From: Toxoplasma gondii ME49 | Lineage: Eukaryota; Apicomplexa; Conoidasida; Eucoccidiorida; Sarcocystidae | DNA length: 64,000 bases | Assembly: GCF_000006565.2 (NCBI RefSeq) | Contig: NC_031468.1 | Location: forward strand, 930,001-994,000 | Direction of reading: 5' to 3' | Part shown: positions 10,218-49,022 of the stretch, in pieces | Layout: each line of letters begins with the position of its first letter | Position numbering within the stretch: position 1 is the first letter of the stretch | Program-made: the position numbers and the translations under genes | Notes under the pieces: model-generated | What the model was told of the DNA's origin: nothing | Databases searched by the model: none | The model's input: the letters and a program-made list of their open reading frames with translations, nothing else

Positions 10218-10409
10218 CTAGTCCTCATACATCAGAGTCATTTGTTCGTGTACCACATAGGCATCCAAGTCAATCGCGGTGCAGTTGTTAATCGCGTAGA
10301 GAAGCCGCTGGCGGAAAATCGAATTCGAAGTGTATCGGGGCAACAGCAGCCTGAAGCCGCACGTCGCAGCTGTCGGGAGGCGGTTGTCGTCGATCGGTGG
10401 CACGCGTTG
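10218..10409 (-). other. HECT ligase coding exon 5 with catalytic cysteine
   Basis: 192 nt encode the last 63 residues and a TAG stop. The acceptor is a strong TTTTTTCCCGTTTCCTCAG. The catalytic Cys codon lies at 10361-10359 within LPTAATCGF. The following RLLYAINNCTAIDLDAY matches the C-terminal style of large HERC ligases. The intron before it is 10410-10815. Confidence 0.85.
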
Positions 10410-13400
10410 CTGAGGAAACGGGAAAAAACAAGGCCAGTCTTTTTACTCGGTTATTCGCTTGGGAAAAGCGCGTAAACAAATGCAGTGGAGCGAGAAAGCA
10501 GGTAATAAAATGTGCTGAGAGAGAGAACGTACAGTCGGAAGGAATACGAAGTCCATACGCCCCAGACTCTCACGAAGATCGTAGAACGGGCCGGAAGCCA
10601 CTCGAAATACCCTTTTCCCTGCTTGGCTTTGTCTCCGATCACTCTGTTCGACAGGAACTCCACGTTAAAACGTGATGTGGACTATGCCAATGAATCTGCC
10701 TCAACTGAGTTGCACTGTCAACACGTGAACCTAGAGATTCCCTCACCGACCTCGACCGGATTGTATTGACACTTGAAAGGCGAGGCAAATTTTCAGCACA
10801 ACACTGGCAACTCACCCCTTCGGGAATTTCGTAGTCGACAGCCATTCGCCAGTCGCTTCCACTGGACGGGAGGCGAGAGCGCCCGGAAACGAAGCGGAGG
10901 AAACGCTGCAACTGATCGTTCGTGAACGTCTCCAACACCTCAAAGAGGGTGGCTTTCAATTCCTCAGAGCCACACGCAGTGTGACTTCGCAACAAGTCCA
11001 GGTCGACCACGCGGTCTCCGCACACTCTGTACTCTAGTCGCCTAAAAAGACAAGTCAGAAAAAAAGAGACTTCTGCTGAGCGGGCTGCGACAAACAACGT
11101 AGGCAACCGTTGACATCAGAAGAGAAGTAACACCGGGACAGGGTGAAAGAGACCGCAGGGAAGAGAGGACCACAATAAGATAAACCTCGATTTGAATGCC
11201 AACGCGAGCGATGAAAAGGCTGGACGGGGATAGACGGAAAGAAAAAGCACGAGAAAAGAAACTTCGAAGCGTGAAGAGACTCCACAGTAAGGAATCGAGA
11301 ATTCCGAGAAAAGTGGCGGCGGACAGACACTCTAATTCCACTTCGACCTTGCTTGTCGGGGGGTTTAATTGGATCCAGTAATGGCTGTCAAATTCCCTTT
11401 GCCTCCTTAGCTCACTGCGTGCTTAGGATCATACCAAAGCAGCTCAATACTGATACTAGGAAATAGGAGACCGCGGTAGTTCTTGAAAACTTGTCTTCTG
11501 AGCCCCCCATATAGAATGGTATATGAAGTTGCCGTATCCTCCGCCCTCGTCCGATGCGCTTACCTCCAATCGAAGAGCATGCGCATGCGCCCAAGGGGAA
11601 GAACGGCCCCGATGCCTTTGAGGAGGGCCTCGAGACTTCCCTGTCCCTCGAGGAGCCGACACCTTTCCGAGAGGCGAATGAAGAGTTCTAGATTCTTGGG
11701 AGTGACAACAATTTCGCTGCCGCCCTGGACGAGCTCGAACGGCTGTCCCGAAGACCCTTCAGTCATGAAAGTCAAATCCGAAATCGATGCCTCCATAGCT
11801 TCGTCCCACAGAGACGGTGGTACAGCTGCCAGGCGTCGAAGCGAGCGCAGCATCTCTACTGCAACGCAGTCCGAATCAGCTAGATCCTGGAAAAAGAAGA
11901 AACGCATCAAGAACACGGAGAGAACAGAGAATATGTGCAAGGCTGAAAAACTGACGAAAAAAGGCGCTGCTCGGCTGGAACGCCTGTGTCAGGACAGTGT
12001 AGCAATGGATATGATCTCGTGCTGTCTTCATGTCCTCTACACGCATCCAGTTGTGCCTGTCACGTTCGGTTCATCGAGTTAGCCCAGTGTGTACGAAGGA
12101 TCGGACACTACAGAGTTCACTAAGGGTACTAGGAAATAGGGCATCGCTTCACGTCTCCCCATACACTACCCTGAGCAAACATCGACTTCTCCGGGAGCCT
12201 CCAGTAATCTTTTTCTGTTCTCTCCTGCGTTGCCCTCGCGCTATACTTTGTAGATCACTCGCCTTTTGTACACTGCGATCAAATCAATGGCAAAGTGGCA
12301 GGTGCGTTTCAGAGGCCGTAGACGTTTACGACGTCTACTCAAGAAGGTTGTATCTGGAATACCCAGATCGCGTCTCCTCTGAGGTGACGAAAACACATCT
12401 TGGACTTGGCTGAGTCGGCGCTTTTGCGTGCGCAACTCACCTGAATTTGGAGGGGCTGTCCCACGAGTTTCTTCCAGATCAGCGGATTCAGGGAAGCGTT
12501 AAATGCCGCTCCTATGCAGGAGCACATGGCGAGAAGGCGCCCGAGAGCTTCGTACATGGCTAGTTCAGCGCGTCGTTCCGTGTCCTTGTCTAGGCCCCCT
12601 TGCCCCAATCTGTCCTCGCCGTCTCTCCGCCCTCCGGAGGGGCCAGGCCCGTCGCCGCCTCCCCCATTTCCGGGGTCGTCTCCTCCGTTGCGGCCGTTTC
12701 CGGGGCCTCCACTGCTTCGCCCCTCTTCCTGCGACGTGGGGAGAAAGAACATGCCTCCCTCTCTCACGCCACCTCTATGAGCAGGCGTTGGAGTAGTGTT
12801 CCCTCTGTTTTCGTCCCGACTCCTGTCCTGGAACCCTCTGTCTCTCCCCTCGTCCACGGGCCACCCTTCGGGCGCCACCGTGCCGCCATTAGGCCCTGGG
12901 CCTCGAGATGCGCCCCGAGATCGCCCTCCGCGTTCGCGGCCGCCTTGACTCTGGAAGCCAAGCGAAGGCGCCGAGCTGTCGTTGCTGCCTCCCGCGACGA
13001 GAGGCGGCGGGGTCAAGCTCCGACCGTGGCTAAGCCCCGAGGGGTCTCTTCCGGGCCTCGTGGGGGTTTGCAGGGGCGCGGGTCGGGCGCCGACCGCATG
13101 GTGGCTCGCAGCCGGCACAGAGAACCTCCCGTGTCTCCCCTCGTCGACCTCGAGGTCGCTGGAGACAAAGGCGAAAGGGGCTGTCTCTCGCTCCATGGCC
13201 CTTCTCCGGTCGGGAAACGCGTCTGCCGGGGTCTGGACGCCGACGCCTCCAGGTCCAGAAACAGCGAAACCGCTTTCGCCTAGGGGCCCCGTCTGGGGCC
13301 CAGGAGTCTGGGGAGATCCAGGGAAATGGCGACCGGACAACGGCGAGGTCGCTGCACTCGAGCTCCCCGCCATGCTGTCGCCCATCTGTGGAGCCGTGCG

Positions 13401-16400
13401 AGGCAGTGCATGCCCCAGAGTAGGAAGCGGAGACGGCATCTGGAACACCTGCCGGTCTTCCCGCCGCAGCCGAAACTGTCCCATGCCTCCGGAGTCTCCG
13501 TGGAAGTCGAGAGCCCCCGGGGAGCTGGGGACGCCTGAGGGCCGCGGTTCCGGCGGGGGGAGAGACCCTTCCCCGCCCCGGCCTCCACTGTGACCCTGCG
13601 GCCGGTGTGAAGCAGGCAGACGCGGCGGATTCGAAGCGAGCGGCGCGGTACCCATCTGTGTGAGAGGGGTCGCATTCGGAAACGTCATCGGCCCGCCGAC
13701 ACTGTGAGAAGGCGAGGCGGGGAAGGCTGCTGAGCGTCCCTGCGTCCCCTGCGAATCCGTGACAGAAGAACCCCCCGGGAGATTCCCGGTCGAACCAAAG
13801 TCGCGGCGCATGCGTCCATCGCGGCGCGGCGCCCCGACCGGCGAGATCTCGAGAGGATCGAAGAAGGACAGGGGGAGACAGGCGCCTCTTCGGCGTCTCT
13901 GAGAAGTCTGGAGGGAAATATTGTCCGAGGGAAAAAAACTGCGGAAGAAAAGCAAGGACGCAAGGTCGGCCCTTCCACGCGTCAGAACGCCGCTCGACAA
14001 CGACCGGAACACTCCTGAAGCTCGTCCCTCTTGGTTCCGAGATGCCATAGCCGCGAAGAGTGGGGAGAGAACCTCCACGAAAGGAGTGGTTTCGAGAGAA
14101 GCGGAGCGCGCTGAGGACCCGCAGGAGTCGCGGCGCGGAAACTCAAGAGTCGCAAGCGTACCAGAGGCACCCATGGCACCGGACGCTTTGCGAGATTCAC
14201 CTTGATCCAGAGCATATTGCTTGACTGTGTTTGTAGCAAGAACACCGATGTCGTCGTCCCCTTCGTCGCTGGACCCGTCGGACCGACTTTCACCACTCGA
14301 CACAAAGTGCCAGTCGGAGCTGAACCCGTCCTTCTCCGTGTCGCTAATGGTTGAAGCCCCGTGGGGCAACGCACCTGTTTCTCTCTCTTCTCGAATCTGG
14401 TCCTCGCCCTCGACTTCCTGCCGTGTCTTGCTTCCGCTTCGTCCCTCGTCGTCAGACCCCTCGTCCTCGCTCCCTTCGTACCTCTCGTCTTCGTCCGTAC
14501 CCACGCTTTCGTTCTCCTGCAACGCCTCAATCTCTCCGCGGAAGTACAACTGCGGCTCTGGGTTGTAGGGCGGGTCGTCCGGCCGGAGCAGGACCGTGTC
14601 TTGATGGGGCCCAATTGCATGTGTTGCGTTGGGGCAGGGGAGGCAGGGCGAGAAGTTTGGAAGGCCCCCGTCGGGGGCGTCGGCCAAACTGCCCATAATT
14701 TCTCGAGCGACGCAGGAGAGAAACTCCTGGAAAGGGCCTCCAAAGTCAGTGGCGCCTTCCCCCTTGAACACGACCATGAACGGTCTGTCTCCGGGCCGCC
14801 CTCGCAGTTTATTTGGGTTCATGTGGGAAGCGAGCAACTGAACGGTCGCCTGGTACAACATGCTATGCAGAATATTTTTTGCAGTCGCGGCGAGTCCACG
14901 GTCGAGGCGAAGCGCCGGAATGTCGTGTGAGGGAACGCCGACACGCTCCAGGGCTCGTCCCCAGAGCGAGGTGATTGTCTCCGACGTCAGAAGAGGCCTC
15001 ATGAAAAGGTAGACGGAAAGCTGCGCCGGCAGATCCGCGGGCCCTGCTTGCACTACCATTTTCGTGTGAGCGTAGAACGAAGCAGCGGTGTCTCTCTTGT
15101 CGCAGCGCGTGGCATGTGAGGGCGAGGCAAGTCGGGAAGCCGGGGATCCCGATCTGCCTCCTTTCTCGCTTCTGCGCAAATGCATGCGTCTCGAGGATTG
15201 GCACACCCAGCTCTTTTCCTTGATTTTCTCTCGGCTTCCGAGACCAAAGTTATGGTGGAGAATGTCGTCGCTCTCGCGTCCTGTGTGCGGAGACCCACTG
15301 TCCAAATGCAACCACGGCAGACAGTTCCTGGAGGGGCCGCGAAGGAACACAACAGGGTCTCCGGTTAAAAGGCCGTGGAAATCTGGTCCGAGATTCGGGG
15401 AGTTGAACACGGAGGCCACAAGCGGGACCGCACGCAACGCCGCGGTGTTGAGACGCACCAGAAGGCGCATGCGCAGGACCAGCAGACGCGTGAAGAGCCG
15501 GTAGAAAAAAGAGGACGGTTGTGGGAGAACTGAGGATCGACGCACCGCTGTCTCCATCATTTTCGACACGGCGCGTCGGAGAGCGATGGCGTGCTCGACC
15601 GCCTCCTCAGGGCTCACAGCCTGGATCTTCCAAAGGGTCTTCTTCTTCGGAACCGTCTTGTCGAGGCGCTGCAGCATCTCGGCTCGGCTTTCCTCGAGCG
15701 TCCAAAAACCGTCTGCGACCCGCTTGAAAAACTCGAGCCTCTCAGGTTCTGTCTTGGGCATGGCCGCAACTGTCTCTGCTTCTTCGCCGCCCTGCTCCTC
15801 CCCCAGAACGCGACGCCCAGCAGCTAGGTCCGGGGCGAGGAGGTCGACAGTCTCCCGGAGCGACACATCGAGACTGAGGGGCCAGGCGAACATCAGTTGT
15901 CGAACCAGCGAGTCTTCCAGGCTGACTCGAACGTGGACGTCGAGAATCACCGCTTGCGGCGCCTCTCCCACCCCTCTCTCCCCTCTCTCCGCTCCTCGCT
16001 GAGACCTCACGCTTTGTCTCAGGAGCGACTTGGCCACTGAAGACGAGGACGGGGCGCGGCAAGGCCCTCCATACGACTCCGGTCGCATCTTCAACACTAG
16101 TGTCTGGCAGCGGCAATGCTGCCAGACACCTGAGCCTCCGAACTCGAGAGACCCGAGGGGGTCGGGAACCTGGTGGCTTTGTCCGGGTTCGCTGTGTCGC
16201 CGAGAAGCAGTCGACGCGGCTCCTGTGCTCATCGCGACCCAGAGAGCATTGTGTGCGGCTCCAGTCTCGATCGATGGGCTTGCCCCTTTGTCGAAAACGC
16301 CCTCGAGGCAGTTGACGCCGAGAAGGGCAGACGCCTCAGCGTCGCCCACACACGGCGTCCACGTGAGGCCCCCTGGGCCCCCGATCGACTGAGTCACAGA

Positions 16401-19400
16401 CAGCTGTGAGGCGAGTCGCCTTCTCCAGCTCACGCGCCGCGAATGACTGTAAAGCGCGCGCGGAACGCGGACATCTGGCTGGTGTCGGAAAGATCCTGGG
16501 AGAGGGTGGGAGACCGGGATAGGCGGCAAGGCGTCGTTGGAAGCTGCTGAGGCGGCGCCCGCCTCTCCGAGGACGTTGACGATGTTCTCCAGCCCCAAAA
16601 CGACCCAGGCCAGGTCGTGGAGTGTGCAGGAAGCGTCCAATGAGTCCTCCAGACTCCGCAAATTGCTTTTCAAAGGCTCCTGAAGGTGCCTCCGGGGCAA
16701 AGCAGTGGAAGCGAGGCCCCCTCTTCCGCCTTGGCGAGCGAATGGAGCGCTGGCATCGCCTTGCGCAGGCAATCGGAATGACGAGTCCCGCCAAAAGTGA
16801 GGGTCGTCGAATAAAACACGCATGAGATTCACAACTTTCTGGGCACAGATCCGCAGGGTTTCACAGTCTGAGGCCGACCCGATAGTCTCGATGAGAGTAT
16901 CTGTCGCCTGAATCGCCTGGTCCAGCCGTTGCTCCACTCCCTGCTGTGTTCCGTCCCTACTTGGAGCCTGCTCGCCTCCACGCATGCGACCAGAAGAGCC
17001 CTGAGTCGCGGACCGAGGCAGCGCCGAGTAGTTGAGCGACGGGAGAGTCTGCGGAATGTCTCCTTCTCCGCCTCGAGAAATCCCTGCACCGCTGGCGCCG
17101 TGAGAGCGGCTTCGGCTAGGGTGGGCAAAGCCAGGAGTCGATTGGCCGTACAGGGGCCCTCCGATTGTTGGGTTTGTCTCGCTTCGCTTCCACTCCTGAA
17201 ATTCTTGGACAAGAAAGCCTGCGACTTCGCGCAGCAGGCCACGCACTACTCCACAGCTCACAAGTCCCTCCCCTGGTGAGTAGCTGAGACGCCGAATCGC
17301 GGTACACGGGTCTGTCCCGGTGGACTGGAAAGACACACTTGGATCAGCAGAAGAGCAGTGACTCAAATGCATCCCCAAGTCTTCTTCATCGCCGCGTTCT
17401 TTCACTCCCGCTGGACGCACATCCCTTCCTTCCTCGTCTTCTCTCCCTCGGGTCTCCTGAGCAGGGGCAGGGCAGGCCTCCGCCCCGTGGAGTCTCGCGC
17501 CGTCGTCATGCAGCTGATCGTAGCTGTCTCCTGGGGACGCTTCATTTGCGGCGTCAAGCTCCTCTACTCCGGTTGCGCGCAGATTGTCTACTGCATCTGG
17601 TGAGGCCTCAGGCCTTCTACTATCCACTCCCTGTAAAGGAGTTAGTGTCGTTGACGGCGGAGGTTGACAAGGCACTCCTCGCTCATCCGACAGCGAACGC
17701 GGGAGTCCCAGATGTTCTTGGCCTTCAAGCCACGGGTCACCCGAATGCGCAACTCCTACTCGTGATTTTTGTTCCTTTGAATTGAGCGCCAGGGCCTGCA
17801 GAACCAGTCTCCCTGTCTCGTCCTTTGCGCGTCCACCGGTCCAGGCCTCCCCGTCGATCTCGAACTTCTCCAGCAGCGCCGCCGGACCTAACAAGACTGG
17901 GTCTGACGGTCGCCATGCAAAAGGGCGACTTTCTTCTTCCGACGAGGACGCACCGGCTTCTTCCCGTGATCTCCCAGAGTCTGTGCCCGAGTACGACGAA
18001 GGCAGGCTGTGAGACGAAGGAGACAAGCTGACAAAAGACCTCCAGGAAGACAACGGATTAGCTTCTTCGTCTCCGACCTCGCGAGATTCAACATTCGGAG
18101 GCGATGGAAGGGGAAGAGCAACGACGGGCAGGCAGTTGGCAAGAAGACCAAACCAGCGCCCCGAAGAAGGGGGGCACAGCGACGTGAACGCTTGCTCACT
18201 TTCAGGCACAAGGTCTTGTGGATATTCGGAGCTGAAGGAGACTCGAGACACCCCTTGGCGGAGACCCTCTGCGATGACGCTCGCGGGCGCTGCAACGTTC
18301 CTAGGGGCAGCGATCGGCGTCTTCTCAGATGTTCGTCCGCCTCCTCCGCTGGAGCTATAGAGGGCCATCCAGGTGGAAAGGAAGGCCCGGAGGCGGTCAC
18401 TCGCGTTTCCGGTTTCTTCGTCGGAATCGAAGGCATAACGTGACGCATCATCGCCGCCTCTGGAGCGAGACTCCCGCCTCGCGGCTCTCTCACCTTCTCT
18501 CTGACCTCGACCAGTCTGGAGAAGGTCAAGAGGTCTCAGTCCATCGTCGTTCTTGCCCTCGGCATCGGCCCCCAACTGAAGCAGCAGGCGCGCCATGTCC
18601 ACACAGTTGTACCAGTCCTCCGTAGAAGCAGACAAGGTGCCGTTCTTTGTCTTCTTTTCTCTCCTCTCGGCTCTCGGGCTCCCCGCTGACATCCCACCTT
18701 CGCTCTGCCTGTAGTCCGGAGACACGCCTGCAGCGTGGGGCGCCACACCAGACCCGGTGCGACCGCCTGAGGGTCCTGGACCGGGTCTCGTTTCATCGCG
18801 GTCTGCATCTACAGAGAGCGGGCTTGGTTGCGTCGCCGTAGCTTGTATCCCTCCAAAGGGCGCCCCAGCATCTGCTGCGGGAGCCCCGACGGTTCCGGGG
18901 AGACCCGAACTGGTTTGGGCCTGTGTGGGATGTTGGGCTCCGCTTGCGGAACGTCCAGGGTCTCGCTGAGAGGCTGGAGACAGCTCCTTGTCTAGGGCTA
19001 GCGCTTGGAGACAAACGCGGTGCAGCGCGGTGTTGCCTCGAGCATCTCGCTTGTTCACGTTGGCGCCATACACACACACAAAGCGCGAAACAAGGGCAGC
19101 CTGACCCGTCTCTGCGGCGGCCATGAGAGGTGTCTCGCCGTCCGCGGGGAGGGACCCCGTGCCTGCGCCAGAAGGCCCGAGCATGAGAGACCTCAGAGCG
19201 GAGACAGGCGTCGTTCCCTCGGGCGAGCAGCCGCCCTCTTCGATCAGCAGCCGCACACATTCCTCGTTCCTCGAGACGACCGCCAGCCAAAGGGGACTCT
19301 CATCGAGTGCTTCCTCGGGCCCAGGGAAGGCGGGCGCAACAGAGGACAAGGGCTCCCGGTGGCGCTTGCAGGACCCAGAGAAAGAGGAAGAAAGAAGCGG

Positions 19401-22400
19401 TGGGAGGCGGCTTCCCGGAGGCAAGGTTCCGAGGAAGGAAGCCTCGACAGCACTCATGCTCGCCGAGCAAGGACTCGCTAGGAGATCCGCCTCCTCGAGG
19501 AGACCCGGGTGAAGCGCAATGAAGTGTGCGACCAACTGAGGGAGGCCTTCTTTCAAACCCCGGTAAAGGAGCGTCACGCCGGTCCCCTCTTTTTCGTACT
19601 GATCCAAGGGGGTCTTGTAGAGGACGTAGGACGACTTGCCCCACTTGGGTGCCCCGGAGACAGGGGGGGACACAGGCGCCTCGAGGCCGGTCTCCTGGAG
19701 CCCAACGGAGGCGACAAGAGCGGAGCCGTGGTGGGGGCCCGCACCTCCAGACACTGATCTGCCAGTCTCGCGCATTGTTCCCAGTCCCGCAGGACCATCG
19801 CCGCGTGTGCCAGACGAAGGGCTGGTCCGGCTTCCGGCTCGGGGCGAGGCGATGGCGTTGCCGGCTTTTCGCTGCGTGTCTGCTTGGGCGCATTTATGCC
19901 CCGAAGCGGCGAAGAAGAAGTCCAGTGACTTCTTCACTTTGCGGCGCTCCGAGAGGCGGTAGAAACTATCGAAATTGAACCCGAACTGGTAGTTGCCATT
20001 CCGGAAGAAGAGCAGCGCCGGAATCGCTGGAACAAACTCTATGGTGACCAAATCGCCGTCCTCGAACCCTGGACACGGGACTTGCGCCTCACGCCACGCA
20101 GGCAGCGACGCTGTCCTGTCTCTGCCGCTCTTCTGCAGGCCTGACGTCGCCAAAGACGGCGTAGAAGATTCGACGGAGTCGTGCTCGCCTCCGATGCGCC
20201 CTCCCAAGGCCTTCTCTCGCCGCTTGTAGAACAGACGGAGCTCGGGAACTGTCGGGACGTCCCAGGGACAGATGAGTCGACCATCGCTGACCCAGAGCCA
20301 GCGGCAGCAACCCCACACGACGCCAACAGCTAGAGGTCCTGAAGGCGCCGTTTCTTCGCTGGGCGTTTGCTCGCCCTCAAGCCGCACTGAGTTGCCCTGA
20401 GCTTTGAAGTCCCCTGCCAGCTTCTCGGCACTAAGAGAAACGCGGCACCCGAACGAGAAAGGCAGAGCTGGATGAACAGCATCGCCTGCCCACGGCGCCC
20501 CAACGAGTGGGCGGCCCGAGGGGACAACAACCCCGGGGACAGTGCCCTTTGAGCACGGAGAAAGAGAAACGCTGGTTTCGCGCCTTCCCAGTACATGCGA
20601 TCTGTGGGAGCTGGTCTGGACAGAACTCGGGGCGTGTGGTGGGTAAGACAACGACGGAAGCGAGGTTACGGCGCCTTTGCAACTCACTGAGGCTGGCGAC
20701 GGATCGCCTCGGCCCTTCTCTTCTTCTCGTGACAAGCTGTGAAGCAAGCCTAGAGACACGGATCCACGAGTCGAAACTGGGGATCCGGAACTGACTCGCG
20801 GCGCGCCTGCCGCGTCATGACGAGGAGCGGAGAACTGGAGGACTGCCGACGGCGACGCGAAGCCATCTGTCGGCGAGACGAGTTCGTCGCCCGCAAAGCT
20901 CCCTCGCAGTGAAGCCTGCGGGCCGAGAACGGTGCCCGTCAGTTGTGGGCCGCCGAGGGTCCCAGACTGCGGACTCTCGGTCTCTGTCTCCGAGCCTTCA
21001 GTCCCTTCTGCGAAAAGGCAGAGCGGTCGGGACGCCAAGACACCTTCACGCTCGTCCGCGGCGCATGCTGTCTCCAACTGGGGCCACGGCGAACTCGAGG
21101 CGCTAGACGATGGCTCGGGAAGAAGAAGCTTCGCCTTTCGAGTCTCGATCCACTTCCAGACTTCGGAAAGCCCGAAGGAGACAGGACCGCCCTTCGGCGG
21201 CGACACAGAGACTCCGCTGCGGACACGAAGGTCCGGGGACACCAGGACCCACAAGGGTGGGTTCGACCCAGAAGACAACTCCTTGTTCAGCCCCATCGTT
21301 GTGCGAGACGCCGGCTTCGTTTTGCTCTCTTTCCTTTCAGGAATGGACCTGGTCGACGAGGGGCCCCCTGCAGCGCTTGAAGTGGAGGGGAAAACCACGG
21401 AGACCGTTTCGGAAATTGGCTCAGAGAAGCGCGGCAGCTCAGACGAAGGCGAAGCTGCGGCAGCCTCAGCAGAGACTGTCGCGCCCGACAGATCCGTATG
21501 GTTGGCGTCGCTCTGAATCGGCTTGGAAAGTTTGTTGCTCTGCGTGAGAGAAGTCCGGGAAGACGCGCCGGAAACGCTGCTCCCGCCCGGAATCTGAAGG
21601 AGTCGAGGCCGAAGAGAAGAAAGAGACGAAGACCTTGTGGAGAGGTAGACAACGTCGCCACATGCATGCACTAGCACGTCTTGAAGCGCTGCTCCGAGAG
21701 GAGAGTTCGCAGAAGGCTGAGTGCCGTCAAAGAGCATAAGCCCATGGGCTTCTCCAGAAAGGCCTTCCCCAAGCCTCGATCTGTTCTTGACTCGAGACGA
21801 GTTCCAGAGTCCCTGGTAGCCCTTGTGGGAGGAGCTTTTCTCCGATGCAACGCTGCCGGCCCAGCGCACCACGCGAATGTCAGGGGGCGGTTCAAACCGG
21901 TAGAACACCTCATTGAGCGGAAGCGAAAGGACTGCGTTGGAAGCGAAGCGGCGAGAGGTGTGGGGAGAAAGCGAGCTGCTCACGCTGGCCAGGCCCTTGG
22001 TGGCGGAGCGAACCGGGGCGATGGGACCTGTCTCGCGGGCCTCGAAGGAGACTGCCAGTCCGACCTGCGACCAGAAGGCACCAGCTGCAGACGGACGTCC
22101 CTCCGCCGCCTTTCCTTTGCAAGAGGAAGCAACGACTAAGACCGGCAGCAGTCTCGAGCACCACGGGGGTAACGTCTGACAAGCCACGACGGCCCCATCC
22201 ACCGCCCACGTGACATGTCGCCCCGCTGTCATCAGAGAGACGCGAACTGCGCCGCATCTTCCCGTTCGCAAGCGTCCGTTTTCTTGTTTCGTTCTAGGCT
22301 CTCGCTTCGAAAAAGAGGCACTTGCGTCTGGCGGCTCGTGTCTTCCCCTTCTAGCTTCACCTTGCTGGCTCGGGATCAGCTCGCGGAAAAGGCTCCCTGC

Positions 22401-37400: not shown

Positions 37401-40400
37401 GCCTCTCTCTCTCGCTTTTCTTTCCAGCAGAGCCGGCGCCGCGAGGCGGTCGTTCTCCGCTTGTCGCGTCCTCTTGGTCACGGCCTCATCCTCCCCAACT
37501 GGCTTCAACGGCTGTGTCGCGGAGAGGAACTCCTGAACGGCCCGAGGCAGGCTGAAGTGGTTTGTCCGAAGCGAGCCGCAGGTCTTGGCACTGCACTCGA
37601 GAACCATCAAAACGGTTCCCCTCAGGGCTCCCTCAACGGCCTGGAAGCCGTGGCCTGGGGGAGCGACGCGGTAGGTCGCGCCTGTCAGAAGCAGGGGTGG
37701 CAGGCCCGCTGCCGAGGCCGTCATCTCCAAGTAGGCTTCAGCATATTTGTCTCTGGAGCCAGCTAGCGAGTTCTTGGCGCCGCTCGGCGACACAAGAGGC
37801 GAGGAGAGGCCCGCGCGGGAAGAAGGCGACCCAAGAAACGCGGAGTCTGCTCCCGGAGAGCTCGCCGCGGGCGATGCGGGGAACGGAGATCGGCTCTGTC
37901 CTGCGAGCGTTTCGAAGGTGGCGAGGGCCGAGGGAATCGAACCGAGCGCCACGAGGATGTCACTCGCAACCGCCACGAACCCCAGACAGACTTCCACGAT
38001 GGGATGTAGCTTCTTCTCCGGACATGCATCCCGGAGAAGCGGATGCAGCAAGCCATGCGGGTCTTCGGTCTCTGCGCAGTCCCGGCCTTCGTCTCCGCCC
38101 TCGGACGCGCAGGAGCTCATCTGGCGAAGAAGCAAGAGAGCGCGAAGCGCCAGTCGCAGGATCAGCGGCCAGAGACGCAGCGTCATTTGCACGAGGGCGA
38201 GCACGACCATGGAATTCTTCTCAGTCGCACCCGCGGCCCCGTCCTTGCGTCCAGGAGTCAGGTTCTTGAAGATGTCGTCTGTGGCGATGTTGTCCCCCGC
38301 ATCTGCGCCGTCTCCACCCTTCTCAGATCCATCAAAACTCGAAAGCAAAGACGCGAACTGAGTGAGGACTCGAAGCACTGCCGTCTTGAGGAACGCACAG
38401 CCGTGGAGAAACGGAGGCGGCAATCCCGCGGAAGCAGGTCCGAACTCTGTTTCGCGCATCGGAACTTCAACGGGGGTCAGCACGCCGGCACTGAACTCAA
38501 TGGGCTCCAAAAGAGCGTTCCTTCGAACTTTTTTCGGGGCGTCTGAAATCGTCTGACTGTCACTTGGGTATCCTGTCGGCTGTCGGCCGTCCGTCAGCCC
38601 AGCTGCAACCCGATGATCCTCAGATGTCCTAGGATTGGCCTCGTCGTGCTCGAGTTCACGCTCCTCTCTCCCTTTCGCGACGCTTCGGTCGACTTCCTGG
38701 TTGTCCCTGTGTGGGTCTCCAGGAGGCCCGTTTGACTCCCTCACCTGATCAGCCCGTCTGAGTGGCATGATCTCGCGGCTCCTTCCTGTTCTCGCGCTCT
38801 CTCGAATGCCCGAGCCGTTGATAGGAACGAATCTCCCTAGGCCGTCAGAGAGAACGATGGCTTGCATCATCGCCGCCAATACACTCTGCCCTGAGGCGAG
38901 AAGACGCCGCAGCAATTCCTCCAAGCAGCTGCAAACATCTTCGAGTCTCTGCAGATGGTGATCCTCTTCCGACCAGCTTCCGTGTCTCAGGCGCCCCGAC
39001 AGCCACGCAGGGGACATGGGCGGGGGTCGGCGAGGCGCGGAAGAGTCCAAGAGTTTTCCGGAGTCGTCCGCGCCGGGATACCCCGCTCTGTCTCCAAGAC
39101 CTGTCGGCAGTCGCTTCGAGGGTGTATGCTGTTCCCCTGGGCCGAGAGGCGGACCTTGCCCTGTGTAGGAAGCGTCCTGGGAGAAGAAGCCGGGGTCGTA
39201 GGGGTGACCCAAATGACGGTGAGGCAGCAATGTGTCGGGCATCGCTAGGTAGATGAGGAGTTGCTTGATCCACTTTTGAGCCGCATGTCGAGCTAATAAC
39301 CCCGCGACTTCGCCTGCAAGACCCGGCGTGGAGCATGCGGCGTCTCTGCAGTCTTCTTGCCTCTGGGCTGGAGTCCCGCATTCTCGGTCGTTCCGTAGAG
39401 CCCACCGGGACGCAGAGGAGGAGGCACATCGGCTTGTGAAGAGCGCAGAGTCAACAGGTGGGCTCCAGAACACCGATTTTGGCCCGGCGCGCGAGGCGAC
39501 CGAGTCGAAGAGGCAGCGATGCAACAGCTGGAGACGGTAGTAGAAAGCCGTCCCGCAGAGCGCGGCGAGAGGAGAAGCGGCGGAGCGCGAGAACGGAAAA
39601 AGACCAGGGCATGCAGATTTGTCTCCCCTGGAGGCTGCCGTCGCCGCGCTTATCGCGACGCCGCAGCTGGGGCTGCTCAAGAGGTGGGGACAGAGGACAA
39701 AGCGAGAGGACCATTCAGGACAGGCTGTCGAGTTCGTCGCAAAGGCAGTGTACGCGAAGAACTCTGCGGAAGCATCCTGGGGGTAAGTCACGCTGTAGAA
39801 GGGAGAACGAGCTTTCGCGACGCTCGGAGGGACGCGGTCGCTTGGCAGCCTCCTCGGCGTCGGGAGATTTGCGCTCCTCCCTGCGGACCTCGCCCCAGAG
39901 CCAGCGGCCGAGACGCGCGAGAGAGACGGGAGGCGCAGGGCATCCTCGATCTGGCGCTCAGTCTGGGACATCAGAGACCGGAAGAACGGCCAGAATCCAC
40001 TGTTTTCGAGACAGGACAGCGAAAAGCGCAGAGCGTCGATCCGCGCGGCCGCTGTGTCTTGGTACGACGCCGACCGCAGGGAGCTGCGCAGGTGTGGGAA
40101 GAGACTGTCGCGTCTCTGGCGTTTCCGGAAGTGACCCGAAGTGGCGGACGCCTGCATCGAACGAGACAGATGCACGCGGCGAAGCGGCCAAGAAAAGCAA
40201 AGGTCACTCTCAGGGGGGAGAGCCTGCCCGCTCCAGTTCGAGCGGAGAGAGGCCGCTTCAGCACTCAGGCCAGAAGTCGATGAGAAACCCTCCCAGGCTC
40301 TCGGCAGGCAGTTGCCCTTCACGAAGCTTTCCGGAAAGCTCTCTCTGCCTCCATGCACAAGGTGTGCGCTCGCAGAGGCGAAATGCGTGGCGTCGCTTCG

Positions 40401-43400
40401 ATGTGTGGGACTGCAGGAACGACTGGGAGGGGTGAAGGGGCAGAAGGGCGCGTCTCTTCTCAAGCTTGCAGGGCTGCGTCGCGGCTTTTTGCCCGTAGGC
40501 TTCACGCACAACGTTTGAGGTTCTTCCTTTCTCCCGTCTTGGTCAGCCTGAACCTCGCGCAAAAGACGGTGGACGATCACCTCGCAGCCTCCCGCGGCGT
40601 CGAGGACACTCAGCGCCTGACGGACCAGAGCGTCCTCGAAGGGGCGCATGTTGGACGCCAGAAGCTTCAAGAAACTCTGGATTTTCTCCGGCAGAACTCT
40701 CCAGAGAAGCGTGGTGAGCAGCGGCGCCTGGATAGACGAGAACAGCTTCAGAGCGGCGCGGTGGAGAAGCCAGACCGCCCCCTCGGCGTCCATCTCCTCC
40801 TGAGCACCGAGACAGAAGCAGACAGCGCAGCAGCGAGGACCGCAGAGAGCGGAAGGTCCCGCGGGCGCCTCCGCAACGAGGCGGGCGCTCCTAGAAGAGC
40901 AAACATCCACAGTGCCCTGCGAAGAAGAGAGGGAAGTGACAGATCCTTGACTGCTTCGTCGAATCCAGGCCGGAAACGCGTCCGAAGACGCCGGCCCCAC
41001 CGCCGTGGGAGTGGCAGGCGCAAAATCTTGACGGTGAGTGCGGGAAACAGGCGACGAACATGCAGAGCCTCCAGCGAGGCTGAACCGGAGCGGCTCGTGT
41101 GCAGACGGCAAGGCAGGATTTCCGGAGAGATGCAGCGGGGAAGAAGTTGGAGACGCCGAGAAAGATGTGTGGATCTCGGAGCCGTTATTGCCAGTGACAG
41201 CCGCAAGTGTGGAGGGAGAAGCCCCAGAACCCTGTGGAAGGCTTCTGTCGCCCTGCGAGGAAACTTCAGAACGCTTGTCCCTCGGATCTGCAGGCCAACG
41301 GCGAGCCGAACAAGACACGACAGGCGGAGGGGCATCGTGCTCGAGCAGGAAAAGGAGGCAGTCGAAGAAGAGACCACTCAATCGGTCGAGTGTCTGAGGC
41401 TGTCGGATCAGCTGATGCCGAAGTTCAGCAACGACATGCGAGTCCTCCAGAAAGGCGCGGAACGAACCTAACAAGGAGCAACAGACTTCGGCTCGAGTTC
41501 TCCACTTCGACCGAAGGAGGACGTGTCTCTGGCCACTGCAGGGAGACAGCAAAGGCAGTTCCGAAGCGCCAGTTCCGGCCTTCCCTGTCACGCCATCCGG
41601 TCGGGCAATCTCTCTCTCGAGTCTCGCGGGCTCTTCGTTCACGGGAAGGAGTCGCAAGCCGGAAACGGAAAGCATCGACGAAGCCAGGGAAGCGTCGACC
41701 TCGCTAGCTGGCGCGGGCACAGAAGAGGCGGACGAGGAAGAGGGGGAACACCTAGGAGCTGAAGCCTGGAGGGAAGAAGAGGCGCCAGAGTTTGAGACCG
41801 ACCAGAATGAGGGGGAAGCGATGGCGGGGGAGAGATTCGTTGAAGCACCAGAGGAACGGTGAGAAGGAGAAGAAGCCGCACTGAAAGCGCTCGCTTTTTC
41901 TGATTCTCCCTCTTGACGCTGACCATGATGAGGGTTCCCTGCTTCCTCCTCTCCACAGGCTTGAGGCTCTGGAAACAGTCCGGATGCATGCGCAGACTCT
42001 TCTTCGTGAAGCGCGGCCCTGACAGCCTCGGCTCTTGCCCTCTTCAAGGCCAGACACTGCAAGTCGAGGGAACTGAGAAAACTCTCAAACAAGACAGCAG
42101 CCTTTCCCGGAGCAGAGAGAATACCAAAAGCGTAGCCAACGACTCCGGGGCTTGTCTCTCTGTCTGCACCAGTCGCGCCGACACCCCGCGTATCCCCTGC
42201 TGTCTCGTCCTCACTGGCCGTGGCCCATGCCTCCAGCCTCGCCTCGGAGACACCTGTCGGTGGTCTCGTTCGCAAAACGAGGTTGTGTAGACAAAAGACG
42301 CAACGCTGAAGCAGATCCTCGAGACTGAAGAGTCCCGCCTTCTTCACTTTGCCGCCGAGCAACGGCTGGAACGTCGGAGACAGCCCAGCACCTTTGGAGC
42401 CTCGACAGTCGGACGACGTGGCGGCCTGTGCAGGCGAAGTCCATGTGAGAGTCTCTGGGTCGAAGAACCCGTCTCTGAGTCTACTTGTCTCCGCTGGTCT
42501 GGCTTTCTCGTCGTTCCCCTGACTGCCGGCTCTCTCCCAGGAGGGGAACCTAGAGCACTCTCCCACGACCTCATTTTCTCCCTCGTCGTCTCCCGAGGAG
42601 AAAGAGGCAGTGGACGAGTCGTCGTCTTCTGCGAAGGCCTCCACCTCCTCTCCCATTACCGCCCCCTCGTCGAAAGCCGCGCCTCCGAATCTCGCGGCGC
42701 GCCTCGCCAGTCTCTCACCTTGCGGACTCCACCCGTTCGCGCTCCACCCGTCGACAGCGTCGGGGCCTTCGCCGGACTCTTCTGCTGCCGCCGCTGGCTC
42801 CCCGCAGAGGAGACGCCTCCGGCGTAGCTCTTCAATGAAGCCGAGAGACCACGATGGCTGTGAGGTTACGCGGAGCGACGCTCGCGGCGTGGTCTCCGCG
42901 CGGACCAACACCTCGTTTGCGGGGTTCACCGACAACGTCGAGGACAAGAGAACAGAGGGGCCCGGTAGCGGGACGGAACACAGCTTCTGGCCGTTGGCAA
43001 AGACGACAATGTGGTGTCTGTCTTTTCTCTTCGACGCTGTGCACTTGCTCTTCTCCGTCTCGCCCCCAAACAGAGAAAACTGGGAACGCTGAGGTCCAAA
43101 CATCGCCGCTCCTCCGTCCTGACTGGATGTTCGATGGCCATGTCTCCGTCGCCTCGATCGCAGTCCTGCCTTTTCTTGCCCTGCCTCTCGCATGCGTTCT
43201 TTCCTGGGCAGTCCCAAGGTGTCCTTCTCAGTACCGTTCCTCTTTCTCGCCGCTCTCTCGAGTCGACCAGAGTCGCAGACGCCAGGGTCGGGAAGCAGCC
43301 AGTCCTGCGCGATGCCCTGTTCTTCGCCTTCTCCTGTGTGGTCGACGAGAATGTCTAGAACGATGGAGTGGATGCCGCGAATGTCGAAGAGTGCGGCTCG

Positions 43401-46400
43401 GACTGATTTCTTCCCCCTTTCTTGGGTCTTTTCCACGAGGTCCGCGTCCGAGTCGGAGGCCTCCCGCGAACTGAACGCTGCGCCGCGACCTGGATACAGA
43501 GGCGACCCGCTGTCGCTGGTTAGAAGAGAGTCTGCGGAGTCGCCAGGCTGCACCGCCGTGCATTTGTTCCTCGCATTAGCGCCGAAGACCCCCCTCTGTT
43601 CTCCACCATCTGTTTCTTCTTCCTGCTGAACCCAGACGACGAGAGCGTCATTGTTCAGCTCCAAGCGGAGGTGGACGTCGCCCTCGTCCACGCCCCCCAA
43701 CCCGGTTCTGTCTCCGCCCTCGTTCGCGGTTCTCTGACTCAGTCGCAATCTTCTTTCGTTCCCGTAAATGATCTCCATACAGCAAGAAAGGTCGCTGCAT
43801 CCAGTTCCGAGACGACGGGGCTGGCTGCGGCCCGTGAGTCCCCCGCCGCGAGGTCCGTCGAAGTCCTCGGCGGAGCCGTAGTACAGACTTCCTCCTGGCG
43901 TGACGAGCGGCCCACAGTCGCCATGAAGAGGCGAGCCTACGAACGAGTGTTCTTCAGGTCTCCGGTTGCTCGGCGAAGGCACCGAGAAGCCCCACTGCAG
44001 ACTTTCGTGCAGTTCGAGAATGAGCTGGAAGCAGTAGGCCCCGAAGGCGGGGATCGGCGAAGAGAGAAGAAGGGTGCGAGACGGAAACGCCGGAGCCTCT
44101 GAAGAACCGGTGAGTTTGCCCGCCTCCTCTCGTCCTTCTTCCTTCTCGGCACCGCCTTCATGGAAAGAAGCGCCTCCCGACGAGCTGGGAAAATCTGAGA
44201 ACGTGAGGGGGAACTGAAGCGCCAGAAGCTCAAGAAGTTGAAGCGAAGGATACGGCGAGGGAGGCAAAACACACTCTCCGAGGAGCGGACCGCGGGCGGC
44301 TGGCAGGCTGTCATTCGACGCCCAGAAAGCCGCATGCTGGCCAGTGAGTGAAGCTCGGCGAGATTGGGAAGATACATGCGACGCAGACAGGGAAGCAGAG
44401 GGAAGAGGAGGCCGCGAAACATTCGCAGATTGGGGAAGAAAGCAAGCAGAGGTGCGATCCACGGGTTCAGGATAAGGCTGTGATGGCGCATCGACGCCAA
44501 AACACCCGCTTTGGGGCTTTTCGGAAACAGGCAAATCAGACAAATTTATCGATCCTGAGTCGCGGCGCCCCATATGGGAGCAGTCACTTTTCTGAACAGG
44601 AGACGAAGGGTCCTCTTCTCTCTTGTGTGTCTCGTTCCGTCCCTCTGACTCACGTTCTCCCTGCTGGGTCATCACCGTCGAGAAAGGCAAGGAGGTGCGT
44701 CTCTGAGCAGATGCTCCGGGTTCGCCTTTCCCGGTAGACGCACGGACAGACACCGGCGAACAGCAGGAATCGATGTCGCTGTGTTTCCCTCGTCCTGCTC
44801 CCGCCGTTCTAGACTTCTCCACCCTGTGCCCCCCAGCGGTGGTGATTTCCGCGGTTTTGCCGTCCCCCGGACTCGCGGCCCTCATCGTGTTCGCTGTCAA
44901 GGCGGCCAGCTCGGCTTCGGCCCGGTCAACGGCGGCGAGGAGCTGCTGCAGAAACTTGACAAAGTCCAGGAGCGAAACGACAGATGAGCCGTGAAGCGAG
45001 AGAAGGAGCAGAGCATCGAGACACCGTGCTAAGACGCCAACCTCCTCGTCCTCGCTCAGGGCTCTCCTCGTCTCCTCGTGAAGGGACGAAGCCAGTGAAA
45101 CGTCGGGCCTCCCCCCGAGTCTCCGAGCGCGGGGGAACGGTGCAAACAGCGGCCGCGCGCTCCCTTGCTCTGAAGGCCCCTGGTTCTGCAGAAAATCCGG
45201 CGCAAGTCTGCCTCCAGCCTCGTGTTGAGTTGCCAGGAAACAAGACTGAATTCTGGACACAAAAAGGCGTCTGACCACGGCGAACAAAAGGCTCGCAGTG
45301 CTTCCTCGAGTCGTCTCACCTGCGCCTCCAACAGCAAGAGACAGGTTCGTATCGTACGAAGGCAAGCAGGGAGAAGCGCTGAATCTTCTTTCCGATACAA
45401 ATGGCGAGTGGAAGCCGCGACCGGCATCTTCGTTGTGGCGGGACGGAGAAGCGCAGAGCGACTCTCGCCTTCCCGAGGGGGCTTCTGCGCCCTCGCGTCT
45501 CGGCTCCAGACCTCCGCATCGGAAATGCCCTCTCGCATCGGCAGAGGGAGAGAAAAACGAAGGCCGCGAGCCTGCCAGGGTGTGACGCACAGCGTCCACG
45601 TACCGTGCAAGAGCCTCGAGCGCTACGGCGTGAGGTGACTCCAGCGCGCGCCTGAAGGTGAGCCCCAGAGAGCCGTGGGAGGCCTCCTGAAGCCCCAGGC
45701 CTGAAAGGTACCCTTGAACATAGCCTTGGGAGTGGCCGGGGGACCCGCACCGAAACGCGTTCGAGGCCGTCAGAGACAGAGCAGAGAAAGTCGGCAACCC
45801 CGAGGGCGAAGCCCACCCGGTAAGGTCTCCGTGCCTGGGCGAGGGTCCCGGACTTGCTTCGGAAAATAAAGCATCTGAAGACAGAGCAAGCGAGCAAATG
45901 CCGCAGGCGTTTTCGACCCCAAAGACACTTAGGGCAACGCGCGAAGTACAGAAAACGCTATCCGCTGTGAAGCCGCAAAAATCACCGGCTCATCATCAAA
46001 CTCCCAAGCAGCTCACTATACACGCACGCAATCGTGCAGGCTACGGAAAAACCTACTTCAACGCATGTGGACGCCGAAGAGCGTCGGGGTGTACTGCCGA
46101 GAGTTAGGTGCCTACAATTTATGCACTGTGCAGAGATGCATGTGTCGAAAAAAGCGAGCAAACAACCTCAGAGAGCAGGGCAGCAGAAACGAAGAAAGAC
46201 GGCGTTTTTTCAGATCAGTATGGCTCCGAAGAGAATTAACTGCGCCTCATGCGTCCGAGTATTCGCAGATCTGCGTCAAGCAACTCAACTGTCTCACCTC
46301 TAAAGGGGACTCGCCGGAAGCCAAGATCGTTTTCGCTGGGGGAAACGCCCTCGAGGAGTGATTCAGTAAGGAGACCCACAAGGGGGTAAAGAAGTCTGGC

Positions 46401-49022
46401 CTCAACAGTCTCTAAAAGGGTGCATCCCGGTGACCCCGCGGGGCCTGTCCCCGCTACGGAAAGAGATTCCGCACCGGCGCCAGCTTGAGCCCATTCAGAG
46501 ACACCACTGAAGCATCCGGCTGTGAAGAGCTTGTCGTCGACGTCCCCTCGAATTCCGCCAGCCCAGCACCTGGGGTACTCGGGCGGCGGGAGAGAAACGA
46601 AGGTGTTGCCTCTTCCACCATCTCTGAAGCCCCAGGCTGTCCCTTCATCTTCTCCGCCGAACCTCGAGAGACGAAGAGACCCGTCGCGCTCGTCTTCCCC
46701 TCCCAGCATGGAAGTTTCAGCCTCCTCGCCCCCGACCGTTCGACGACCCCGCAGAGATCCGGAGTTCGCGTGGCGACCGCCTTGAGATCCACTTGGCGAC
46801 GGTCTCTGATTTGTGAGTCCAGCGGCTGTGGGGCTCGCACGGGGCCACTGGCCCCCAAGGCGACTCGCTTCGTGGACAGCGTCCCGAGCGTCGCGTTTGA
46901 GGCCAGCAGCCTCTCGGAGACAGACGGAGAGGAAAGCACACAGGGGGTAGAGTTGTCTCGGGAGAACCATCCTGCCGTCGTCTGTTTCGAGACGGAAGAC
47001 GTCGTCGTCCTCGTCCTCTTCGTCTCCCGAGTCTTCGTCCGCCTCTTCCCCGTATCGTCGCGAGGAGCTTCTCCTGCGTTTGCTCTTCTGCCTCGCCTCT
47101 TGTCCAGACAACTCCCGCGATTTGCCGCTGAGTCGCCCTGGAGTGCCCCGGCCCAGTGGTGCAGCCATGGCGTCGATATCTTCCAGCAGGTCAAGGAAGC
47201 AGTCTGTGTCCTCGTTCTTCCTGCCTCGGCGTCGCGACGGCGAAGCCGCGCTTGTTCTTCTCCTGAATGGCGCGACGCTGAAAGGCCCAGCAACAGCTAG
47301 AGCGGGTTGCAGGAGGACAGAGACATCGACCACTGAGGGAACAGGGAAGGTCCTTTGGTCCCTCTCTCTGTCATCCACAGACCCGCTGCTGGGGGCCGAG
47401 AGGCCCCCGGAGGCGACGTGGAGGCTGAGGAGCCGCCGGTGGAGGCCTGTTGACGGCCTCTCTGCGAAATGGAGACCAGGAAGAATGAGAGATGGGTCTC
47501 CAGAGAAACTGAATCCCTCTTCTTCTGCATCCAGATAAAAACTCGAGTGGTGCGAGTCTCTTCCTCGCGCGAGTTCGCCCCCTTCCCACTTGCTATTGTG
47601 TTCGCTCCTGTCTCCAGCTGCAGAGACCCCGGCGCGGCGCCCATACCCACGGCCGCCGCCCCGATGTCCGCCGCGTCCGTTGAGGAGAAACAGGAGGTCT
47701 CGAGGCGCGAGAGAAGGAAAAGAGAAGGAGATACGTTTGCAAGACGCCCGACAGACCGCAGACAGGAGGCGCGTGAGCATGAACGTGAGATTGGCATCCA
47801 GAAAAACGAACGGAGACGGCATGAGTCTCGGCGACGCATTAGGCAGTACGTGTCGAATCCGAAGCTGAGAGTAGAGACTAGGCCCCACCCTTCGCATCTT
47901 TCGTACCTCTTCAGGGAGCTGAACTGCACTCACGGCATCTGCCACGGGAGTTCGAGACGCCGAGTCCCCTTGAATCTGGAACGGAGATGCATCCGAAACT
48001 TGAGAGAGACATCGCATCTGCAAAGCGCATGCAGAAGACCCGCGAATGTTCGTTGCTCGACAGCCTCCGCCTCGAACTTCTTCAAGTTGGCGCGCGTCTC
48101 TCGGGCTCCTTGCCCTTCTTCTGGTAACTGTGCGCCGTCTTCTCCTGTCTTCGCGTGCTGCCAGTTCTTCCCGAGCAGTTGTGAAAGTTCGGAGAATTCG
48201 CGAAACGCCTTGAAGAAGGAGAAACTCCGTTCGCTCGTCCAGAGACGATGAAAGAAGACGCACGCGCCCCAAGACTGTGTAGGGCGTGAAGGCTTCTCCA
48301 GCCGCAATGGCGGCCTCCGCGGCTGCGAAAGACAGACAGTTCCTGGGAGAATCTGGGGCATGTCCCTCCCATGAGGAGTCGCCTTTCGCCTCCGATTCCG
48401 GCAAACCCACCTCGTCTTCGCCAAATCGGTGTGGGCGACAGGAGACAGACTGCGAGTTCGGACTCGCTCCACAGAGACCCAACGAGACCAGCGGGCTCGC
48501 GCCGGCATCGGGGACCGATAACCTATCTGAGGCAGGCAGGAGGTCCAGGTGGGGGCGAGAGATTCCGGAAGGAGAGGCGACAGAGCGCCACTGTCTCTCC
48601 GAAGACACAGCTTCGTCGGAGTCAGCAAGGGCGGACTGAAGAGCTGGGAGAAACGGCCTAGAAGGCCACCCAGTGGCGGGACCTGCAGCTTCGTATGAGT
48701 CAGAAGGAGCCATATCAAGGGTGGCGGTCGGCGGAGACTGGCACGATGACAGAGAAGGAAGCTTGGAGTTTGGAGAAGTCTTCGAAACGTCAGGTGGGAA
48801 TATGACATTTGCGTGAAGTGGATCTTGAAAGTCAACAGGTGGAGCGCGCGAGTCCGAAGACGTACACGAAGGTGCAGAGACAGGAGGAGACGAAGGAGAG
48901 ACTGGAGAAGAAGGAGAGAGAGGGGAAGAAGGAGAGCGCAGAGAAGAAGGTGAGAGAGGGGATGAATGAGAGAGAGAGGACGAAGCAGAGAAAGGCGAGG
49001 AAGACGGGAGTCGAGGCCTCAT
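10218..49022 (-). CDS. Giant HERC/HECTD4-like HECT E3 ubiquitin ligase, five coding exons
   Basis: I join exons 49022-46298, 45874-12441, 11886-11564, 11041-10816 and 10409-10218. All introns are GT-AG, donors are GTGAG or GTAAG, and acceptors end in pyrimidine-rich YAG. The phases (1, 0, 2, 0) match at each junction. The sum is 36,900 nt, giving 12,299 residues plus TAG. The start is the first ATG after an in-frame TGA at 49049-49047. The HECT domain occupies about residues 11239-12299, with GEGATDFGGPFQEF at its start, YEALGRLLA, FVSGRSRLP, and the catalytic Cys about 12253 in LPTAATCGF. HECT enzymes accept ubiquitin on this Cys from an E2 and pass it to substrate. The ending YAINNCTAIDLDAY resembles HERC and HECTD4 ligases, yet no RCC1 repeats are visible. 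Beta-sandwich, ankyrin and helical blocks lie upstream. In-frame introns without stops inside the long exon cannot be excluded. Confidence 0.9.
10816..11041 (-). other. HECT ligase coding exon 4
   Basis: 226 nt coding residues up to 12236. It includes VDLDLLRSHTACG and LQRFLRFVSGRSRLP, the hinge and early C-lobe of HECT domains. It ends in phase 0 before GTGAGT at 10815. Confidence 0.85.
11042..11563 (-). other. HECT ligase intron 3 (522 bp)
   Basis: GTAAGC donor and CTTGTCTTTTTAG acceptor. Phase 2 on both sides rebuilds the conserved LFDWR-RLEYRVCG sequence at the lobe junction. Confidence 0.85.
11564..11886 (-). other. HECT ligase coding exon 3
   Basis: 323 nt coding residues 12054-12160 and part of 12161. 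It carries the late N-lobe (SGQPFELVQGG, TPKNLELFIRLSERCRL). The donor GTAAGC at 11563 splits an Arg codon that is completed by the next exon. Confidence 0.85.
11887..12440 (-). other. HECT ligase intron 2 (554 bp)
   Basis: Donor GTGAGT at 12440 follows CAG; acceptor TTTTTCCAG ends at 11887. It joins LVGQPLQIQ to DLADSDCVAVEML, restoring a continuous HECT N-lobe in phase 0. Confidence 0.85.
12560..14490 (-). other. Low-complexity insertion of about 640 residues within the HECT N-lobe
   Basis: Residues about 11371-12014 are acidic at first (EDERYEGSEDEGSDDEG), then Gly/Pro/Arg/Ser-rich (GNGGGGDGPGPSGG). They interrupt the HECT domain between FRGEIEAL and AMYEALGRLLAMC. Subtracting them leaves about 420 residues, near the usual HECT size. 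There is no frame break and no splice pair flanking the tract that is obviously better than retention. Confidence 0.75.
14490..14885 (-). other. Start of the HECT N-lobe
   Basis: Residues about 11239-11371. The segment contains RPFMVVFKGEGATDFGGPFQ, matching the 'F.GEGA.D.GGP..E' opening of HECT domains, which forms the core of the larger N-lobe that binds the E2. It is followed by PYNPEPQLYFRGEIEAL, after which a very long low-complexity insertion begins. Confidence 0.85.
18530..19580 (-). other. Ankyrin repeats of the HECT ligase
   Basis: Residues about 9674-10024 show at least four degenerate to good ankyrin units. Diagnostic pieces are VTLLYRGLKEGLPQLV, ESPLWLAVVSRNEECVRLLI, GETPLMAAAETGQAALV then GANVNKRDARGNTALHRV, and VDMARLLLQLGADAEGKNDD then GLRPLDLL. 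The third and fourth are separated by a low-complexity spacer of roughly 120 residues. Ankyrin repeats bind partner proteins, so this is a likely substrate-recognition region. Confidence 0.75.
19970..20320 (-). other. SPRY-like segment of the HECT ligase, second copy
   Basis: Residues about 9427-9544 read GVVWGCCRWLWVSDGRL near the start and GDLVTIEFVPAIPALLFFRNG followed by FGFNF near the end. This is close to the SPRY/B30.2 signature, in which a 'GD.V...' strand precedes a 'FF.NG' hairpin. The segment lies directly before the ankyrin repeats, suggesting a protein-binding module. Confidence 0.55.
22050..23060 (-). other. SPRY-like segment of the HECT ligase, first copy
   Basis: Residues about 8514-8851 include strand-like LVLRNLHAPAPGISYAVSA, HCELVFSLEC, GRVFVGVVAV and RVSLMTAGRHVTWAVDGAVV. 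The alternating strands and the 'W.VDG..V' turn resemble SPRY/B30.2 domains that read out partner proteins, but the match is by eye and loops are long. Confidence 0.35.
24620..25380 (-). other. Helical, armadillo-like block of the HECT ligase
   Basis: Residues about 7741-7994 are low in Ser/Pro spacers and consist of amphipathic helices, for example FLYLLCSLAGFLPDLM, ALNVLRLFRICIYFLS, RAVLRLHRLLQTEQLFHLIG and LGLDAARLTFWMVARH. Such helical solenoids are common substrate or scaffold regions in giant HECT ligases. The armadillo label is inference. Confidence 0.4.
28115..28670 (-). other. Compact conserved-looking beta-rich block of the HECT ligase
   Basis: Residues about 6644-6828 form an unusually complex, spacer-free stretch inside an otherwise low-complexity region. 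It has strand-like runs such as EAEVIEGRTLHVLRARE, VLNFRVLTSGRFGVTVAP, YLSVKFNVDL and MNLVFVLQDPMTIVYEG. A helical piece follows immediately (YQAILLSESDVMRRLRGEVL). I do not recognise the family. It is likely a folded domain and a good target for structure-based searching. Confidence 0.4.
42900..44080 (-). other. Concanavalin-like beta-sandwich segment of the HECT ligase
   Basis: Residues about 1507-1901 contain strand-like pieces separated by charged loops. Examples are FQLILELHESLQWGFSV, GGSLYYGSA, LRLELNNDALVVWVQQ, IHSIVLDILVD and HHIVVFANGQKL. The order of bulky hydrophobic strands and the 'VVFANGQ' hairpin recall concanavalin/laminin-G or SPRY folds. The fold is an inference from pattern only; no family signature was scored. 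Confidence 0.4.
45875..46297 (-). other. HECT ligase intron 1 (423 bp)
   Basis: Reading the minus strand, the intron begins GTGAGACAG at 46297 and ends in a strong pyrimidine tract, GCTCTGTCTTCAG, at 45875. It joins phase 1 to phase 1 and creates an Asp codon across the junction. The exon-2 frame is open from 45874, so the TTG at 45797 is not a start codon. Confidence 0.8.
46298..49022 (-). other. HECT ligase coding exon 1
   Basis: 2,725 nt encoding residues 1-908 plus one base. The donor is AGAG followed by GTGAG at 46297. The N-terminus is a Ser/Pro/Leu low-complexity tract. Later parts include a helix-rich stretch around residues 240-280 (LLQGVSRILRTF), a hydrophobic block (FVFLDANLTFMLTRLLSAVC), and a second near the exon end (LLYPLVGLLTESLL). 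No named domain was recognised here. An acceptor at 49071-49072 places 48 nt of 5' UTR in the same exon. Confidence 0.85.
48860..49010 (-). repeat. Ser/Pro-coding GA-rich low-complexity tract
   Basis: The plus strand is nearly pure purine (GAGA, GAAGGAGAG units). The minus strand encodes a repetitive Ser-Pro-Leu N-terminus with SPLSPSS and SPSSPP blocks. This may be unstable or length-variable and could form unusual DNA structure. Confidence 0.7.

Follow-up and report, generated by a model that had tools for sequence, protein, structure and literature searches.

Giant HECT-domain proteins have already been described in apicomplexan parasites. The part of PMC12007708 available to us reports that PfHEUL (PF3D7_0826100) has 8,591 amino acids (aa) and an active HECT domain. 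Similarly, the accessible part of PMC7363832 links PfHECT1 (PF3D7_0628100) to egress and numbers one of its phosphosites 9244, so this protein has at least 9,244 residues. Excerpts of PMC11321763 and PMC9436416 describe SPARK- and PP1-dependent phosphoregulation of TGGT1_280660, a HECT protein from Toxoplasma gondii with a different gene ID from the one discussed below. Here we analyze a 64,000-nucleotide (nt) stretch of the T. gondii ME49 genome ("the window"), where a single minus-strand gene very probably encodes one HECT-type E3 ubiquitin ligase of about 1.3 MDa, the T. gondii member of an apicomplexan family, inflated by the growth of linkers. An earlier note on this DNA had proposed a ligase of about 12,300 residues, had stated that giant HECT proteins are known in apicomplexans (as PfHEUL and PfHECT1 confirm), and had ranked this one among the largest single-chain ubiquitin ligases. 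The ranking fits the lengths given above, and the longest relative from our HECT-end search has 7,626 aa. Because giant apicomplexan HECT proteins are already described, the kind of enzyme is known; what is new is the size, a hidden SPRY-like domain, and a split HECT domain.

The gene runs from 49022 to 10218 on the minus strand. Its five exons are exon 1 (46298..49022, 2,725 nt, with the ATG at 49022, encoding aa 1-908 plus one base), exon 2 (12441..45874, 33,434 nt, a single open frame), exons 3 and 4 (11564..11886, 323 nt, and 10816..11041, 226 nt, both HECT), and exon 5 (10218..10409, 192 nt, with the end of the HECT C-lobe and the stop codon TAG). Spliced, they amount to 36,900 nt, or 12,299 codons and the stop. 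All four introns (423, 554, 522, and 406 nt) are GT/AG, and the exon phases agree, so the earlier model was reproduced in its coordinates, lengths, splice sites, and phases. The open frame of exon 1 begins 24 nt upstream of the ATG. Exon 2 has no in-frame stops, versus 219 and 202 in the remaining minus-strand frames and an expected mean of 229 (199-259) in 20 first-order Markov simulations. The introns have a GC content of 0.48-0.52, versus 0.60-0.64 for the 2-kb windows between 12001 and 46000. A sixth exon of 111 nt (10643-10533) was rejected: it is absent from the one relative compared, whose match scores 285 bits without it and 270 bits with it. Because this exon lowers the relative's match, the five-exon model stands.

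In profile searches, the C-terminal end matched Pfam's HECT family far above the curated cut-off (162-168 bits versus 23.9). For the spliced end, E was 3.1e-47 with a query that still carried 37 residues of the rejected exon. The HECT region extends beyond the last ~420 residues that had been assigned to it. The second piece, aa 12005-12299 (10221..12587, minus strand, exons 2-5), contains the Pfam match and is 65% identical to its homolog from Eimeria stiedai, and ~652 residues upstream of it lies a first piece with a conserved lead-in (aa 11174-11352; 14544..15080, minus strand), which contains FKGEGATDFGGPFQEFL and is present in 19/19 relatives (see below). The two are separated by a low-complexity insert (aa 11353-12004; 12588..14543, minus strand). 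If the first piece is joined to the second and the 37 residues are removed, E improves to 6.8e-49, but the match starts at the joint: it covers profile positions 28-302 of 306, with the first piece outside it. The best solved HECT structure by sequence is HECTD3 (E = 2.5e-32, tail included; solved chain of 864 residues). With the insert omitted, this alignment begins at aa ~11276 and continues across both pieces as far as the tail, which suggests that the N-lobe is complete. The predicted catalytic residue is Cys12253, 46 residues before the C-terminal end. Its codon is at 10359..10361 (minus strand), and it lies in LPTAATC, which aligns with the LPxxxTC cysteine of HECTD3.

Upstream of the HECT region, on the same strand, we distinguish four islands and a stretch of ankyrin repeats. 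Island A (33231..33947, aa 4885-5123) is conserved in Eimeria stiedai (BLAST E = 2.8e-32). Island B (28122..28703, aa 6633-6826) is predicted to form a SPRY-like beta sandwich. Pfam's SPRY profile matched island B in 0/8 family members, so we name it a SPRY-like fold only. Island C (24609..25550, aa 7684-7997) has no Pfam match and only chance-level matches to sequences in PDB, and its HPLC motif is invariant (7/7 aligned sequences). Island D (19929..20477, aa 9375-9557) may be a second, partial SPRY-like fold. The ankyrin repeats (19002..19568) lie within aa 9678-9866 (Pfam PF00023, E = 1.6e-11 and 2.8e-10).

To find relatives, we searched with 3,991 residues from the middle of the protein, which gave two hits among 2,834 candidates: a Babesia caballi protein and an unnamed one. 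A search with the HECT end of the unnamed relative gave 94 matches among 800 candidates, including the query. The 18 close-group proteins from the HECT-end search and the Babesia caballi protein comprise our 19 relatives; 3 of the 19 lack a source name. Islands B and C and both HECT pieces were each matched in 19/19 relatives, in the same order. The Eimeria stiedai protein (7,626 aa) has 16 collinear matches that span aa 3643 to 12299, and it also matches more weakly from aa 1608 (E = 3.6e-5). At E < 1e-3, profiles of islands B and C (made from 8 and 7 family members, respectively) hit all 20 members, including the T. gondii protein, and 0/76 other HECT proteins; 17 of the 20 members had been found through HECT only. 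The island D profile found 19/20 members, with other HECT proteins following closely, from E = 0.0012. The LPxxxTC motif is within the last 75 residues in 18/19 relatives, and the exception is a gene model that is missing its C-terminus.

We also built a tree of 34 HECT sequences: the T. gondii protein, HECTD3, nine of our 19 relatives, and 23 of the 76 other proteins. The ten family sequences form a clade (99/98 support), with T. gondii beside Eimeria (97/87). Two other coccidian HECT proteins (P0046 and P0074) are next to this clade. Because the deep branches are weak, we did not place the family among the human HECTs. Given the collinear islands B, C, and HECT and the clade in the tree, the T. 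gondii protein belongs to an orthologous family of apicomplexan Ank-HECT proteins.

To examine the N-terminal end, we took 10 Babesia/Theileria-type relatives, built a profile from their first 90 residues, and compared it to the T. gondii protein, all frames of at least 30 codons in the window, four relatives, and exon 1 shuffled 1000 times. The frame of exon 1 was the top hit (E = 5e-7, aa 245-279, window 48290-48186), and the best unrelated sequence had E = 2.8. Because a profile of proteins that are annotated as single chains matches exon 1, exon 1 is tied by homology to the HECT exons.

The Ank-HECT relatives have the islands, their order, and a HECT domain with an AIDLDA-type tail in common with the T. 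gondii protein, which differs from them in length: 12,299 aa, versus 6,359-6,637 in Cryptosporidium (one partial protein has 4,145), 7,626 in Eimeria stiedai, and 4,756-5,601 in Babesia/Theileria. Among the named relatives that are not marked partial, the range is 4.8-7.6 thousand residues. Each of the four inter-island stretches that we measured is longer in T. gondii than in six relatives. By BLAST edges, 673 residues separate the HECT pieces in T. gondii. This gap spans 73-98 residues in three piroplasms, 145 in Eimeria, and 258 or 208 in the two Cryptosporidium-type proteins measured. As a side observation, in the Babesia caballi protein (P0001) the HECT match stops early and repetitive sequence continues beyond residue ~4778; this part of the annotation looks like a gene-model error.

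Among other HECT proteins, HERC1 and the SPRY-HECT proteins have a similar tail, but the T. gondii protein differs from HERC1/HERC2 and the SPRY-HECT giants by its ankyrin repeats. Scanning the chain in pieces gave no Pfam match to RCC1 repeats, and Pfam also missed the SPRY-like fold. HECTD3 is known for its DOC domain; Pfam found no DOC domain in the T. gondii chain, within the limited sensitivity of the profile. Nor did the chain match DUF908 or DUF913. PfHEUL is likewise a giant apicomplexan HECT protein, as is PfHECT1, but the accessible part of its description makes PfHEUL HUWE1-like with DUF908, which is unmatched here. HUWE1 itself is far from the family in the HECT tree, but on a long branch.

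The strongest match to actin, at C2:998471-1000021, is ~19 kb from the start of the gene (window position 49022 is C2:979022). A HECT search of the genome gave at least 24 matches at at least 8 loci, and all of those on C2 fall in the giant gene. In the portion of PMC12362873 available to us, actin is TGME49_209030, and TGME49_209000 is a HECT-domain ubiquitin-transferase that is downregulated, with differential m5C peaks, in a comparison of RH and ME49. Because of the nearby actin match and because the HECT matches on C2 are all in the giant gene, we infer that it is TGME49_209000. The accessible part of PMC9499322, in discussing a TgUba1 TurboID experiment with a mass spectrometry readout, names TGGT1_209000 among the proteins near TgUba1. 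If the giant gene is TGGT1_209000, then this result places its product near TgUba1.

We propose that the HECT domain would accept ubiquitin from a charged E2 on Cys12253 and transfer it to substrates. Substrates would be held by an upstream scaffold with at least one SPRY-like domain, the ankyrin stretch, and other conserved islands. Long low-complexity linkers set the islands apart, and their growth, including the insert in the HECT region, would have inflated the T. gondii member. To judge from sequence, the locus would be translated as one chain that acts as a ligase and recruits substrates. Single-chain annotations from Babesia, Theileria, and Eimeria (which are predictions themselves) carry, in matching order, homologs of exon 1, of the islands in the middle, and of the HECT end, which supports one chain; the Pfam match, LPTAATC, and these collinear relatives support the ligase of about 12,300 residues that had been proposed. 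Several observations count against this view. Only 3,259 of the 12,299 residues align with relatives at E ≤ 1e-4 (1,870 without Eimeria), and low-complexity sequence makes up ~60% of the chain. (Still, these aligned residues correct the earlier claim that nearly the whole length is uncharacterised: ankyrin repeats and a SPRY-like fold are recognizable.) The N-terminal profile is weak against Eimeria (E = 0.05), and two Cryptosporidium-type proteins and P0011 are not among its listed hits. Two protein searches gave no copy of this gene from T. gondii or another close coccidian. Pfam finds nothing in the first HECT piece, whether by itself or joined to the second. Finally, the C-terminal tail, NC-AIDLDAYVVHEQMTLMYED, is unlike the short tail common in HECT domains, but is partly shared by HERC1-type relatives.

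Given the sheer length of the 39-kb locus, it might yield several products, either from alternative transcripts or from proteolysis of one chain that separates a scaffold from a HECT piece, and the open frame may still conceal in-frame introns. We consider this unlikely: 33.4 kb has no stops, the GC of 0.60-0.64 across the 2-kb windows exceeds the intronic 0.48-0.52, relatives with the same order are annotated as single chains, and the N-terminal profile links exon 1. Alternatively, because an insert of ~652 residues divides the HECT region, the domain might be catalytically dead or kept inactive, with the protein serving as a scaffold. This seems quite improbable given that the cysteine of LPTAATC is retained (as is LPxxxTC in nearly all relatives), that the second piece is so similar in Eimeria, and that the six measured relatives are also gapped at this place, with shorter gaps (73-258 residues). 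The proximity to TgUba1 also raises the idea that the main partner is the ubiquitin-like modifier Urm1, not ubiquitin. This is very improbable, as the link is one of proximity only and the gene identity behind it is inferred. Also, HECT enzymes are established ubiquitin ligases.

Two neighboring genes are on the plus strand: a G-patch domain gene (6495-7937, Pfam G-patch_2, E = 3.3e-15) and an elongation factor Ts gene (54365-55600, Pfam E = 4.3e-24). They were among 10 frames scanned with Pfam, of which 8 were unmatched. A 16-base motif, CTCCTATTTCCTAGTA, occurs on the minus strand at 9418-9433, 11454-11469, and 12127-12142, with 3, 0, and 2 mismatches, respectively; one copy is in the 3' flank of the giant HECT gene and the others are in two of its introns. 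Three copies compare to 0.16 expected, and 0/100 shuffles reached three.

As a doubtful but broader idea, these proteins could form an apicomplexan class of ligases in which a megadalton scaffold, with ankyrin repeats and unrecognized SPRY-like readers, feeds the HECT domain, and in which a variable N-lobe insert could tune access of the E2. The T. gondii form would be the most inflated one and would act as a regulated hub that might join the ubiquitin and Urm1 pathways. If our preferred reading of one giant ligase is true, then a human parasite holds one of the longest ubiquitin ligases known. Because Cryptosporidium, Eimeria, Babesia, and Theileria have members of the family as well, its conserved islands can guide the choice of which parts of a 1.3 MDa protein to express, namely the HECT pieces, island C, and the SPRY-like domain. 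Members of 4.8 and 12.3 thousand residues would offer a direct comparison for the effect of linker inflation.
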